Assembly: GCF_900108365.1 (NCBI RefSeq)
Contig: NZ_FNWQ01000002.1
Span: 248,001 to 312,000, forward strand
Length of the DNA: 64,000 nucleotides
Source of the DNA: Chryseobacterium culicis
GTDB lineage: Bacteria; Bacteroidota; Bacteroidia; Flavobacteriales; Weeksellaceae
Reading direction: 5' to 3'
Under the pieces are notes generated by a model. It did not search any database. It saw only the letters and a list, made by a program, of their open reading frames with translations, and was not told where the DNA came from. Positions 3,587 through 24,935 of this stretch are shown here, piece by piece. A program made the position numbers and the translations under genes. Within the stretch, counting starts at the first letter, position 1; each line of letters begins with the position of its first letter.

Positions 3587-4348
3587 ATGAAGAAAATTGG
3601 AATTATAGGCTATGGCTGGCTGGGGGAGAGAATGGCGCCTTTCTTATCCGAAAGATATACCCTATCGGCTACCACTACCACGGAGAGTAAAGCACATGAG
3701 CTGAATAAAAGAGGAATTAATGCCATAACAGCTACTTTTCCGGACTATCAGCTGTCTGAACCTGTTTCTCAGTGGAAAGACATTCAGGATGCCGATGCAC
3801 TTATTATTACCATTCCTGTTTCTGAAAAAAGCTGTTGTGTAAGTTCTTTATATAACAGAATTCAGAATTTATCAGCCTTTATCGGAGATTTTAAAGGACA
3901 AATGTTTCTTATGAGTTCCACAGGCGTTTATCCGGATCTTGCCAAAGAATTTACAGAAGAAGATGTTCCTCTGGAAAAAGTATCGGGAGAGCGGATGCTG
4001 AGAAGTAAATATCCACAGCTTAACATTCTGAGGCTTGGCGGTTTGATGGGAGATGACAGACTTCTGAAAAAATATAATGTAAGCAATCTGGACCATGCAG
4101 TGAATCATATTCATTATGCTGATATAAGCAGGATCATCTCAGAAATGATTGAAAGAAAAACTGAATCCAGGTTATACAATGTAACGGCTCCGCTTCATCC
4201 GGCAAAGAGCCAGGTGATTAATGCTCAGAAGGATATCATTGACGATGAAGAGTTTGAGGTGAAAGGGAAGAAGGTGTTGTCTTCAAAATTAATTTCAGAG
4301 TTGGATTATGTATTTCAGTATCCGGACCCGAGAACGTTTCATCTGTAA
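3587..4348 (+). CDS. NAD(P)-binding Rossmann protein, YeeZ-like SDR
   Basis: A 253-residue cytosolic protein. MKKIGIIGYGWLGERMA is a Rossmann beta-alpha-beta with the glycine motif GYGWLG at residues 8-13. Later segments fit an extended/atypical SDR of the YeeZ (UDP-galactose-4-epimerase-like) group: the MSSTGVYP strand-turn, LRLGGLMGDDR, and a C-terminal substrate-binding part. The canonical YxxxK pair is not evident, as in YeeZ relatives, so the catalytic activity is uncertain. It appears monocistronic and faces the convergent nucleoside phosphorylase gene. The fold is firm; the substrate is unknown. Confidence 0.7.
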   Translation: MKKIGIIGYGWLGERMAPFLSERYTLSATTTTESKAHELNKRGINAITATFPDYQLSEPVSQWKDIQDADALIITIPVSEKSCCVSSLYNRIQNLSAFIGDFKGQMFLMSSTGVYPDLAKEFTEEDVPLEKVSGERMLRSKYPQLNILRLGGLMGDDRLLKKYNVSNLDHAVNHIHYADISRIISEMIERKTESRLYNVTAPLHPAKSQVINAQKDIIDDEEFEVKGKKVLSSKLISELDYVFQYPDPRTFHL

Positions 4349-4401
4349 TTATTTATCGTATTAGATTCATTTTACTTACAGGATTTCCTTTACCGCCTTT
4401 A

Positions 4402-4461
4402 TCATTTCGTAGAATTCTCTATGAAGCTTTTAAAAATCAGTATTTAGATTCTACGGAATGA
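4402..4461. repeat. Imperfect inverted repeat (CGTAGAAT / ATTCTACG arms)
   Basis: The left arm at 4402-4418 (TCATTTCGTAGAATTCT) and right arm at 4446-4461 (AGATTCTACGGAATGA) pair almost fully across a 27-bp spacer. A degenerate relative of the right arm (TTTAGATTCC...CTCGGAATGACA) occurs at 26533-26562, so this is probably an interspersed intergenic repeat. Confidence 0.55.
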
Positions 4462-4530
4462 CAAGCTAAGTGAGTAGTTTTAATTATTGTGAAAAGATCA
4501 CTATTTTCGATAAATACAATCAAATTAATT

Positions 4531-21771: not shown

Positions 21772-22200
21772 ATGAACTATAATAATTCAAATTCGAGCTC
21801 AATACCTAAAGATATTATTTTGTTAGTGGTGAGAGTGTTTGTAGGTTTTGCCATGCTTTCTCATGGTTTTCCAAAACTTCAGATGCTGTTGGCAGGCGGT
21901 AAAATCGAGTTTTTTGATTTTATGGGACTTGGGCCTCAGATATCACTGATTCTTACGGTTTTTGCTGAATTTGTATGTTCAATACTCCTTATACTAGGCC
22001 TCTTTACAAGAGTTTCTCTTGGATTTCTAATCTTTACAATGATCATTGCAGGTTTTGTAGTACATGGTGCAGATCCTTTTGAAAAGAGAGAAATGGCGCT
22101 TGTTTATCTTTCCGTTTATCTTTTATTGATGGTAATAGGAGCCGGAAAAATTTCCGTAGATCACATGATAGAAAGAAGAAAAAGAGCTTCGGAGTGGTAA
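21772..22200 (+). CDS. DoxX-family membrane protein
   Basis: A 142-residue inner-membrane protein with four hydrophobic helices (about residues 15-35, 60-80, 87-105 and 112-132). The first helix RVFVGFAMLSHGFPKLQML and the AEFVCSILLILGLFTR segment are typical DoxX features. The family is linked to redox or thiol stress, but its activity is poorly defined. It may be cotranscribed with era. A shared bidirectional terminator separates it from the convergent GG-leader peptide gene. Confidence 0.82.
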   Translation: MNYNNSNSSSIPKDIILLVVRVFVGFAMLSHGFPKLQMLLAGGKIEFFDFMGLGPQISLILTVFAEFVCSILLILGLFTRVSLGFLIFTMIIAGFVVHGADPFEKREMALVYLSVYLLLMVIGAGKISVDHMIERRKRASEW

Positions 22201-22224
22201 TGTTATCATAAAACCAACAAAATA

Positions 22225-22254
22225 AAAAGGCACTTCATATTTGAAGTGCCTTTT
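22225..22254. terminator. Bidirectional terminator, DoxX / GG-leader peptide
   Basis: A perfect 13-bp stem (AAAAGGCACTTCA / TGAAGTGCCTTTT) with a TATT loop lies between two convergent genes; it ends six bases before the peptide stop codon. Confidence 0.85.
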
Positions 22255-22260
22255 CTGTTA

Positions 22261-22413
22261 TTAAGGTCTGCAAGATGGTAAACACTCCCAGATTGGAGCG
22301 CCACTCGGCGTTTTCCCCACTCTGCAGGCCATGTATCCGGAATCACATAATGGAGCATTTCCTCCGATAATAGTTTTCAGACTGTTCTTTGATAATTTTC
22401 GTAAGTTTTTCAT
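22261..22413 (-). CDS. Bacteriocin-like small peptide with double-glycine leader
   Basis: A 50-residue ORF. The leader MKNLRKLSKNSLKTIIGG matches the flavobacterial MKNLxKLxRxxLKxIxGG leader cleaved after Gly-Gly by C39-peptidase ABC transporters. The predicted mature part is 32 residues (N19-P50) with four cysteines (C23, C30, C44, C48), one tryptophan and five prolines, fitting a disulfide-stabilised secreted peptide. It has its own terminator and a near-consensus -7 box (TACATTTA) upstream. Similar genes are annotated in Chryseobacterium as bacteriocin-like proteins with no proven activity. No modification enzyme, immunity protein or C39 transporter is adjacent, so export would depend on a distant transporter. 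Confidence 0.8.
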   Translation of the reverse strand: MKNLRKLSKNSLKTIIGGNAPLCDSGYMACRVGKTPSGAPIWECLPSCRP

Positions 22414-22532
22414 ATTGTTTTATTTTGTGAAGTAAATGTAACAAAAAAATAAATATGACACTAAAAAGAGTCTTATTTATTTCATTTTATCAATCTTCTA
22501 AAATTTACTATATTCGTAAAAAATGAATTTAT

Positions 22533-24935
22533 ATGAAGATAAAACTGACCATCTGCCTTCTGGCATTTCTCAATTTTTATGATGCACAGGAGAATATCAC
22601 GTACCAAAAGCCATCAGCTGAAATCCTGAAACTGGCAGATTATCAAAGACCGCCAAGTGTTCTGATGAACAGTAAAAAAGATTGGGTGGTCTTTACTTAT
22701 CGTCCAACATATAAAACACTGGAAGATCTCAGCCAGCAGGAAATGAAACTTGGAGGGCTGAGAATTAATCCTGTTACTAACATCTCAAGCAGCACAACCT
22801 ACTCAAATAATCTTAAGATCAGAAAGATCAATGATAAAAATGAGCTTCAGGTAAAAAATCTTCCTTCCAACCCGAAAATTACGTATGTTTCTTTTTCTCC
22901 GGATGAAAAAAAACTGGCTTTTACCAATACTACCGCTAAAGGGGTAGAGCTTTGGGTGGTAGATCTGGAAACGGCTTCGGCCAAAAAAATAACAGCTGAT
23001 AATCTTAATGCTAATTTAGGAATGCCTTATGTATGGTATAATGACTCTCAAAGCTTCCTGATCAGAGTAATTCCACAAAACAGGCCGGCTCTCATAGATG
23101 CAAGCAAAGACCTTCCTACAGGCCCTATTGTTTCAACAGCAGACGGTAAAGTTTCACAGAACAGAACCTATCAGGATCTTTTGAAAAATCCTCAGGATGA
23201 AAAAAACTTTGAAACGCTTACCGCTTCGGAAATTTACAATGTTGACCTTACGGGAAATCTTAAAAAACTGAAAGATCAGGATATGTATGCAGGCCTAAGT
23301 TTTTCTCCGGATGGAAATTATCTGATGGCTACCACAATCAAAAAGCCGTTTTCCTATATTGTTCCACTTAACAGATTCCCATCGCAGACAGTGGTGTATG
23401 ATATGAAAGGAAATGCTGTAAAAACAGTAAATGAAGTTCCTCTGAATGAAATTATGCCAAAAGGTTTCTCTTCTGTCAGAACCGGAAAAAGAGACATGGC
23501 CTGGAGAAGTGATGCTCCAGCTACGCTTACTTTTGCTGAAGCTTTGGACGGAGGAGATCAGTCTAAAGCAGCGGAATACAGAGACGAGGTATTTACGTGG
23601 GATGCTCCATTTACAGCGGCTCCGAAGTCTTTCTTCAAAACAAAGCAGAGATATGATGATGTAGTTTGGACGAATGATCATTATGCGATTGTCTCCGAAG
23701 GCTGGTATGACACAAGAAATACAAAATCTTACCTGATAGATACCAATAACGGGGAATCTAAGGTTTTCGATGACAGAAATTATCAGGATGTCTACAGTGA
23801 TCCGGGAAATTTCAATACCACAAAAAACCAGTATGGAAGATACGTAATTGATATGAAGGGTGGAAAAGCCTATCTGATCGGAGACGGGTTTACCAAAGAC
23901 GGTCAGCATCCGTTCATTGATGAAATGGATGTGAAGTCACTGAAAAAGAAAAGACTGTACACCTCTAATGTAAAGAATGGTAAAGAAGAAATTATTGATA
24001 TTCTTAATGCTTCAAAAGGAGAAATCCTTACGACTCAACAGTCACCGAGCCTATATCCTAATTACTTCAAAAAGAACATCAAATCTAATAAAGCAGAAGC
24101 GGTAACTAACTTTGCAAACCCTTTTGAAAGCATCAAAGACGTTTACAAAGAAGTCATTACCTATAAGAGAAATGACGGTGTTACTTTAACCGGAACGCTT
24201 TACCTTCCGGCTAATTACGACAGAAAAGCGAAAAAAGAAAAGCTTCCGTTGCTGATCTGGGCTTACCCTACAGAATATAAAGACAAAAATACAGCAGGGC
24301 AGAATACCCAAAACCCTAACGACTTTACATTCCCGTACTACGGATCTTTTGTATACTGGACAACGAAAGGATATGCTGTTCTTGATGATGCGGCTTTCCC
24401 GATTATCGGTGAAGGAAAAACAGAGCCTAATGATACGTTTATCCCACAATTGGTGTCCAATGCGGCGGCTGCAATTGATGCAGTAGATCATCTGGGATAT
24501 ATTGACAGAAAAAAAGTGGCTGTAGGAGGACATTCTTATGGGGCTTTTATGACTGCCAACCTTCTGACCCACTCTGATCTTTTTGCCTGCGGAATTGCAA
24601 GAAGCGGAGCCTATAACAGAACTTTAACGCCATTTGGGTTCCAGAGCGAGCAGAGAAACTATTGGGATATTCCGGAGATCTACAATAAGATGTCTCCGTT
24701 CATGAATGCAGACAAAATGAAGACTCCGCTTCTTCTGGTTCATGGGGATGCAGATAACAACCCTGGAACATTTACCCTGCAGACGGAAAGATACTTCCAG
24801 GCATTGAAAAACCTTGGGGCTCCGGTAAAAATGGTTCTTCTTCCAAAAGAAGCCCACGGATATCAGGCCAAAGAAAATATCTTCCACCTTTTATGGGAAC
24901 AGGATCAGTTCCTTGAAAAGTGCCTGAAGAAATAA
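22533..24935 (+). CDS. Secreted S9-family prolyl oligopeptidase-like peptidase
   Basis: An 800-residue exported serine peptidase. Signal peptide to about residue 19 (LLAFLNFYDAQ). Residues about 40-540 form the beta-propeller (KITYVSFSPDEKKLAFTNT, GLSFSPDGNYLMAT); the alpha/beta-hydrolase domain is about 560-800. The catalytic triad is S668 (GGHSYGAFMT), D739 (VHGDADNNPGT) and H775 (PKEAHGYQ). The layout resembles S9D glutamyl-endopeptidase-type enzymes, which are common in periplasmic peptide breakdown by Bacteroidota. It is monocistronic with a strong terminator. Confidence 0.9.
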   Translation: MKIKLTICLLAFLNFYDAQENITYQKPSAEILKLADYQRPPSVLMNSKKDWVVFTYRPTYKTLEDLSQQEMKLGGLRINPVTNISSSTTYSNNLKIRKINDKNELQVKNLPSNPKITYVSFSPDEKKLAFTNTTAKGVELWVVDLETASAKKITADNLNANLGMPYVWYNDSQSFLIRVIPQNRPALIDASKDLPTGPIVSTADGKVSQNRTYQDLLKNPQDEKNFETLTASEIYNVDLTGNLKKLKDQDMYAGLSFSPDGNYLMATTIKKPFSYIVPLNRFPSQTVVYDMKGNAVKTVNEVPLNEIMPKGFSSVRTGKRDMAWRSDAPATLTFAEALDGGDQSKAAEYRDEVFTWDAPFTAAPKSFFKTKQRYDDVVWTNDHYAIVSEGWYDTRNTKSYLIDTNNGESKVFDDRNYQDVYSDPGNFNTTKNQYGRYVIDMKGGKAYLIGDGFTKDGQHPFIDEMDVKSLKKKRLYTSNVKNGKEEIIDILNASKGEILTTQQSPSLYPNYFKKNIKSNKAEAVTNFANPFESIKDVYKEVITYKRNDGVTLTGTLYLPANYDRKAKKEKLPLLIWAYPTEYKDKNTAGQNTQNPNDFTFPYYGSFVYWTTKGYAVLDDAAFPIIGEGKTEPNDTFIPQLVSNAAAAIDAVDHLGYIDRKKVAVGGHSYGAFMTANLLTHSDLFACGIARSGAYNRTLTPFGFQSEQRNYWDIPEIYNKMSPFMNADKMKTPLLLVHGDADNNPGTFTLQTERYFQALKNLGAPVKMVLLPKEAHGYQAKENIFHLLWEQDQFLEKCLKK

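Follow-up and report, generated by a model that had tools for sequence, protein, structure and literature searches.

The window is a stretch of 64,000 nt from the genome of Chryseobacterium culicis (our genome G000; window coordinates G000:C8:248001-312000), and we analyzed a small gene within it that encodes a cysteine-containing peptide with a double-glycine leader. The genes and features at the locus are as follows.

22261..22413, minus strand: gene for the GG-leader peptide, ATG start, 50 aa, recognized by its open reading frame, synteny, conservation and dN/dS
22360..22413, minus strand: leader of 18 residues ending in GG, matching the NCBIfam model NF047798 (leader_Chryseo)
22264..22359, minus strand: mature part of 32 aa with four Cys, predicted by AlphaFold2 to be a beta-hairpin
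22224..22255, minus strand: terminator-like hairpin 3' of the peptide gene, 14 pairs with a T-rich tail
22457..22472, no strand assigned: inverted repeat GAC(A/T)C-N6-GTGTC in the upstream region shared by two divergent genes, seen in an alignment by eye
21772..22200, plus strand: neighboring open reading frame convergent with the peptide gene, which we take to be DoxX-like
22533..24935, plus strand: neighboring open reading frame divergent from the peptide gene, presumably an S9-type peptidase

The preliminary description had read the small gene correctly as a 50-residue open reading frame with a GG leader and a 32-residue part; GG occupies residues 17-18 and the cysteines lie at 23, 30, 44 and 48. 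Residues 1-18 aligned with positions 1-18 of the 18-position NF047798 profile at 30.2 bits (E 3.7e-7), above the curated cut-off of 23.5. The peptide is a further member of this leader family, which NCBIfam has already catalogued under the name 'bacteriocin-like protein', and the earlier remark that normal gene calling would pass over so short a gene is doubtful, since NCBIfam has a model built for exactly such a leader. That model covers the 18 leader positions only and includes no mature part, exporter or oxidase.

Cleavage after the GG would release a mature peptide that probably carries disulfides; with two of them its computed monoisotopic mass is 3374.513. The peptide has a net charge of +1, and AlphaFold2 modeled the mature part as a hairpin with strands at mature residues 10-16 and 22-27 (mean pLDDT 91.9, pTM 0.48). 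Compared with NCBIfam, Pfam, PDB sequences, PHROGs and PDB folds, the mature part gave no match to any named family. At a limit of E 10 the fold search gave 35 PDB matches, none of them reaching E 0.001; R-spondin furin repeats and the other fold matches were set aside for their short overlaps, one PDB-sequence profile match (E 0.58) was taken as chance, and PHROGs returned nothing at E 1. Scores stayed below threshold for Pfam PF10439 Bacteriocin_IIc (16.2 bits, gathering score 27.1), TIGR04149 rSAM-modified RiPP (14.5 bits, curated cut-off 25) and NF047792 CCPGW (18.3 bits, curated cut-off 80). The mature sequence also lacks the YGNGVXC motif of class IIa pediocin-like bacteriocins, as that motif is named in PMC6671954.

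A terminator of its own and a convergent neighbor had been claimed for the gene. The DoxX-like gene at 21772..22200(+) is indeed convergent, and a hairpin is present at 22255-22224(-), but a plus-strand version of the repeat (13 pairs) was recorded too, and the hairpin may therefore be common to the peptide gene and the DoxX-like gene. When the downstream regions of 17 sequences were aligned by eye, the hairpin was kept in most of them, with varying letters in its arms. The inverted repeat at 22457-22472, recognizable in many but not all of 17 aligned upstream sequences, is a possible operator.

The window ORF is a real gene and more than a chance reading frame, because its leader scores above the cut-off, its synteny is conserved, GG and all four cysteines are invariant, and dN/dS is well below 1. 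Among 48 named loci that were matched, 17 (L001-L015, L017 and L021, the last with a damaged copy) have the peptide between the same flanks, in the order Era, DoxX-like gene, peptide, S9-type peptidase, and the other 31 carry other paralogs or have a different context. The best 29 genus loci besides the window's own (L153-L181) all have it in this slot, 28 of them intact; the two sets overlap, L158 and L001 sharing match coordinates (4358-4507) on a contig numbered 21. With paralogs counted in, at least 111 of 148 genomes of the genus carry a relative at E 1e-6. Loss of the leader or of the cysteine spacing in close relatives had been named in advance as an observation that would speak against the proposal; both are conserved. 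In an alignment of 17 rows (the window sequence, L001-L015 and L017), the invariant residues were M1, K2, N3, L4, K6, L7, K9, K13, G17, G18, A20, P21, C23, G26, C30, W42, C44 and C48. Over these sequences, pooled pairwise dN/dS came to 0.161 (leader) and 0.193 (mature part); six close sequences gave 0.134 and 0.135. The recurring slot and a dN/dS below 1 bear out the view that this is a separate gene.

The gene is accessory. We examined 16 genomes of the genus, most of them selected for the absence of a strong match to the peptide. Both flanks were visible in 13 stretches, and 12 of these had no peptide match, L182 having one. The L183 gap seems to retain the last codons of the peptide gene together with its terminator and may be a deletion scar. 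Two damaged copies were seen in the usual slot: in L021 the leader is disrupted and the core contains a stop, and in L179 the start codon is absent and the leader contains a stop. These copies, and the 12 of 13 empty gaps between the DoxX-like and S9-type genes in genomes picked mainly because a strong match was missing, are what might be expected if the peptide were an unexpressed relic of a decaying family. We consider this very improbable, as the gene is intact in 28 of the best 29 genus loci and evolves with a dN/dS of 0.13 to 0.19.

No immunity gene was seen at the peptide locus, where the neighbors are the Era, DoxX-like and S9-type genes. The DoxX-like gene was rejected as a dedicated immunity gene since it is kept by all 16 of the examined genomes, which had been picked mainly for missing the peptide. 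The S9-type gene bears on a different proposal, in which the peptide leaves the cell by the export and oxidation route described below and acts on another outside target, as a protease inhibitor, an adhesin or a matrix component. A disulfide-braced hairpin, such as the one predicted here, is a common inhibitor scaffold, and an S9-type peptidase gene adjoins the peptide in the 17 and the 29 syntenic loci. That gene, however, persists where the peptide is missing (12/13 stretches), and the fold search with the mature model found nothing in the PDB at E 0.001 or better, so that we regard an outside target of this kind as quite unlikely.

The preliminary description proposed looking for paralogs, and the peptide turns out to be no lone novelty: it is one of about 53 paralogs with a catalogued leader. 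A search of its own genome with the NF047798 leader model gave 57 hits, 29 of them over the cut-off. We left out four hits within long open frames (437, 569, 285 and 456 aa), dropped C17:174488 (46 aa, no GG and no Cys) and added C15:203231, and so counted 53 GG-type peptides, with the split between leader and core set by hand for four of them. Their leaders are alike and their mature parts dissimilar: mean pairwise identity was 0.522 for leaders and 0.250 for mature parts, as against 0.240 for shuffled mature parts. The number of cysteines was even and non-zero in 52 of the 53 (52/54 if C17:174488 is kept), a parity count that ignores kinship. Alike leaders, dissimilar mature parts and even cysteine numbers together fit disulfide peptides with a common processing route. 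The mature parts are mostly acidic, with a median net charge of -2; 37 of 53 are negative and three stand at +2 or more. All 12 sampled genomes of the genus had leader matches, 4 to 40 each at E 0.01 among the matches listed.

We also compared the stretches upstream of the family genes, using a set of 53 that still had C17:174488 and was without C15:203231. TAnnTTTG occurred in 12 of the 53 own-genome stretches, compared with a mean of 3.1 in mononucleotide shuffles; it is absent upstream of the window gene and was rejected as a common promoter signature. GACTC/GACAC-N(3-9)-GTGTC was found in one of the 53, that of the window gene, and in no other. The DUF805b RNA (Rfam RF02914) gave 15 strong hits in the genome (E below 1e-4), 10 of them over the gathering score. 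Eight of the 15 immediately precede peptide genes of the GG or AG type; one of the eight is G000:C18:98411-98443(-), in front of the GG peptide of the exporter operon described below. The remaining hits precede various other ORFs and a gene that we take to be caspase-like; none was found at the window gene. One paralog, with the core IPMCLAGYFWCS... or a close variant of it, hardly differs between many Chryseobacterium species (L019, L020, L022-L039), and the own-genome copy, C8:1149880, carries the DUF805b motif. In another stretch (L109 5218-10232, corresponding to G000:C15:198217-203231), two more GG-type Cys-rich peptides of 64 and 60 aa are each followed by their own VKOR-thioredoxin-like oxidase and a 275-aa protein, with no C39 exporter among the ORFs of the stretch.

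A C39 transporter was the other item that the preliminary description proposed to look for. The genome encodes two C39 proteins at E 0.01, neither of them local. As in double-glycine C39 substrates, the GG of the leader directly precedes a short core and a C39 transporter is present in the genome. The C39 transporter of contig C9 sits in a LanB/LanC cluster. This stretch (L090, G000:C9:640000-655000) is of the lanthipeptide type, with a LanB-like dehydratase, a LanC-like cyclase, the C39 ABC transporter and a protein that is presumably luciferase-like. Given this cluster, the window peptide could be a lanthipeptide precursor, its cysteines joined by the LanB/LanC enzymes to dehydrated Ser/Thr. 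Yet across the 17 sequences all four cysteines are invariant and none of the mature part's Ser or Thr residues is, the cysteine number is even in 52 of 53 family members, and the peptides co-occur and cluster with a disulfide oxidase, which makes this the least probable of the explanations, extremely unlikely in our estimate. An operon of another make-up lies on contig C18.

G000:C18, about 96850-102350, all genes on one strand, on a different contig from the window: operon for a VKOR oxidase, a C39-ABC transporter, a GG peptide and HlyD

The products are a VKOR-thioredoxin oxidase of 504 aa, a C39-ABC protein of 731 aa, a GG peptide of 64 aa with six Cys and an HlyD protein of 432 aa, with gaps of about 190, 60 and 45 bp. 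The oxidase has exactly six cysteines, at 175/189, 256/259 and 368/371. The window peptide's transporter is likely not local but encoded in this exporter/oxidase operon. Among the matches listed, the C39 exporter (90-100% identity) and the oxidase were present in 12 of 12 genomes of the genus; they lay less than 400 bp apart in 10 of the 12, 3 kb apart in G082 and on separate contigs in G116, and a leader hit fell between them in G020, G043, G091 and G112.

Across 120 genomes of the family, leaders at E below 1e-4 and the oxidase occurred together in 21, the leader alone in none, the oxidase alone in 5 and neither in 94; outside the own genus the counts were 9/0/5/94 (Fisher p 5e-10, a value that ignores kinship and depends on a cut chosen after the data were seen). 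With all 24 leader-positive genomes at E 0.01 included, they became 21/3/5/91 (p 8e-16), and outside the own genus 9/3/5/91 (p 1e-7), kinship again being ignored. Among the matches listed, the three leader-positive genomes without the oxidase were G016, G018 and G107, whose leaders matched at E 2e-4 to 3e-3, and five oxidase-positive genomes had no leader. Among these same matches the pairing holds within three mixed genera (g12, g23 and g26), the oxidase occurs without the leader in g9, g10, g21 and g22, and weak leaders occur without the oxidase in g17 and g19. The C39 exporter is more widespread than the leader, with copies 82-87% identical in genomes without leader hits, among the matches listed.

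A cluster in Flavobacterium hydatis (L016) contains a homologue of the window peptide with another leader and a similar core (NAPLCD.G...); 14 of 28 mature-part residues are identical.

L016, 4128-5693: VKOR oxidase, with 15 GG peptides following
L016, 9587-11779: C39-ABC transporter
L016, 11783-13078: HlyD, with two more GG peptides following

The homologue lies inside this VKOR/C39-ABC/HlyD cluster, so the core type of the window peptide does occur with this machinery where the parts stand together. All 17 GG peptides of the cluster, counted by leader pattern and leaving out a GG-like ORF without Cys at 3705-3875(-), have four or six cysteines. The C39 domain at the N terminus of the L016 ABC protein was read from its sequence and from an alignment with the two own-genome exporters, the Pfam scan having covered the C-terminal part.

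In the L016 oxidase, Pfam C39 matches a stretch ahead of the VKOR domain (E 1.8e-6). In an alignment of 24 fetched oxidases, six N-terminal stretches matched Pfam C39 (best E 2e-7); the own-genome C18 oxidase had no Pfam C39 match. Comparison of the N-terminal domain with three exporter C39 domains by hhalign gave E 7e-4 at a probability of 25.7%, which is weak alone. AlphaFold2 modeled the own-genome N-terminal stretch with a mean pLDDT of 83.0 and a pTM of 0.66, and a Foldseek search with this model gave 17 matches at E 0.001 or better (best E 2.4e-5), all of them C39 domains or transporters carrying one. The matched folds were ComA, PCAT1, a PCAT-type protease in complex with a leader and the HlyB C39-like domain; fold comparison gave Z 11.2 and an rmsd of 2.8 over 108 residues, with other papain-fold proteins close behind (Z 10.0 and 9.4). 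On the predicted model, then, the N-terminal domain has the C39 fold, like the C39 domains of HlyB (3zua), ComA and PCAT, but it is fused to VKOR and thioredoxin and theirs to an ABC transporter. No cysteine was present in this stretch in 21 of the 24 oxidases, and no alignment column had more than one. With the active-site cysteine absent, the domain should not be a cysteine peptidase; the C39-like domain of HlyB, which also lacks this cysteine, is inactive. The simplest reading is that this domain is a docking site for leaders, through which precursors are delivered to the oxidase, and such a domain in an oxidase suggests leader-guided disulfide formation.

We propose that the gene is expressed and that the precursor would be exported by the C39 peptidase ABC transporter with HlyD and cut after the GG. 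The oxidase's Cys-less C39-like domain would probably hold the GG leader, with disulfides made as the peptide emerges, and the mature peptide would fold into a small two-disulfide beta-hairpin. The C18 machinery would serve the roughly 53 scattered peptides in trans. Once secreted, the peptide would most likely inhibit competing bacteria, working like the bacteroidetocins. We judge the export and oxidation route to be probable and the antibacterial use to be a tentative reading, somewhat below an even chance; the explanation taken whole, an exported two-disulfide hairpin peptide with machinery in trans and bacteroidetocin-like action, stands at about even.

According to PMC6671954, bacteroidetocins (class IIf) have a GG leader, four cysteines, a thiol oxidoreductase and a C39 transporter and can be toxins; deletion of the thiol oxidoreductase attenuates toxin activity in a producer, there is no obvious immunity gene, and producers show no self-protection. 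Compared by description, the window peptide shares with them the GG leader, the short four-Cys mature peptide, the C39 ABC transporter, the thiol oxidoreductase and the lack of an obvious immunity gene. The earlier statement that the mature part resembles no known bacteriocin class accordingly stands for the mature part in the searched libraries but not for the biosynthetic logic, which resembles that of class IIf. The four-gene class IIf locus (TM protein, peptide, thiol oxidoreductase and C39 ABC transporter) was not found around the window peptide, whose neighbors are the Era, DoxX-like and S9-type genes. Unlike the bacteroidetocin peptides, the Chryseobacterium peptide lies far from its presumed machinery, and about 53 peptides would use one machinery. 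Its operon includes HlyD, its leader has 18 aa against 15-16 aa, and its family is mostly acidic, whereas bacteroidetocins A and B have net charges of +6 and +2 (both bacteroidetocin values from PMC6671954).

A simple transfer of the toxin function is weakened by the mostly acidic family and by the slow evolution of the window peptide at a fixed site. The acidic family and the lack of an immunity gene beside the peptide leave room for signaling, in which the same export and oxidation route would deliver a signal or pheromone within Chryseobacterium communities and not a killer. Fixed synteny with a dN/dS below 0.2, and the near identity of another paralog across species (L019, L020, L022-L039), also point this way. 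On the other hand, some 53 mature parts, dissimilar and all from a single genome, are a large number for signals, none of the Era, DoxX-like and S9-type neighbors is an evident receptor, and bacteroidetocin producers likewise show no self-protection (PMC6671954). We consider a signal unlikely, though worth keeping in view.

Within the same genus, PMC8939145 describes chryseoviridins, graspetides whose lactam/lactone linkages are made by ATP-grasp ligases encoded with the precursors, and PMC8584744 mentions that bacteriocin gene clusters have been reported in Chryseobacterium indologenes. The window family resembles the chryseoviridins (PMC8939145) in having several precursors per system, but the evidence here points to disulfides. 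Our search of literature outside subscription journals found nothing on the NF047798-leader Cys-peptide family or on the C39-VKOR oxidase.

In prochlorosins and other families in which one enzyme has many substrates, the substrates are scattered, have leaders of one type and differ in their cores, and they are processed in trans. The peptides described here are likewise many and scattered, combine one leader type with variable cores, and would have disulfides in place of lanthionine rings. Some 53 peptides, most of them orphans, together with a single candidate exporter and an oxidase with an inactive C39-like domain constitute a variant of known GG-peptide systems.

The usual way to find GG-leader peptides is to inspect the surroundings of their transporter. 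Such a search would miss most of the peptides here, which are orphans seemingly served in trans. The broader proposal, that about 50 scattered small genes form a library of secreted disulfide peptides folded and exported by one machine, with the GG leader read by the inactive C39-like domain on the VKOR-thioredoxin oxidase so that oxidative folding is leader-guided, is one that we hold with slightly less than even confidence. If it is true, the oxidase would be, to our knowledge, the first case of an inactive C39 domain guiding disulfide formation via a leader. The genus would then hold a large stock of uncharacterized disulfide peptides with a ready system for export and folding, and a whole library of small folded peptides may be secreted by the bacterium, perhaps for use against other bacteria.
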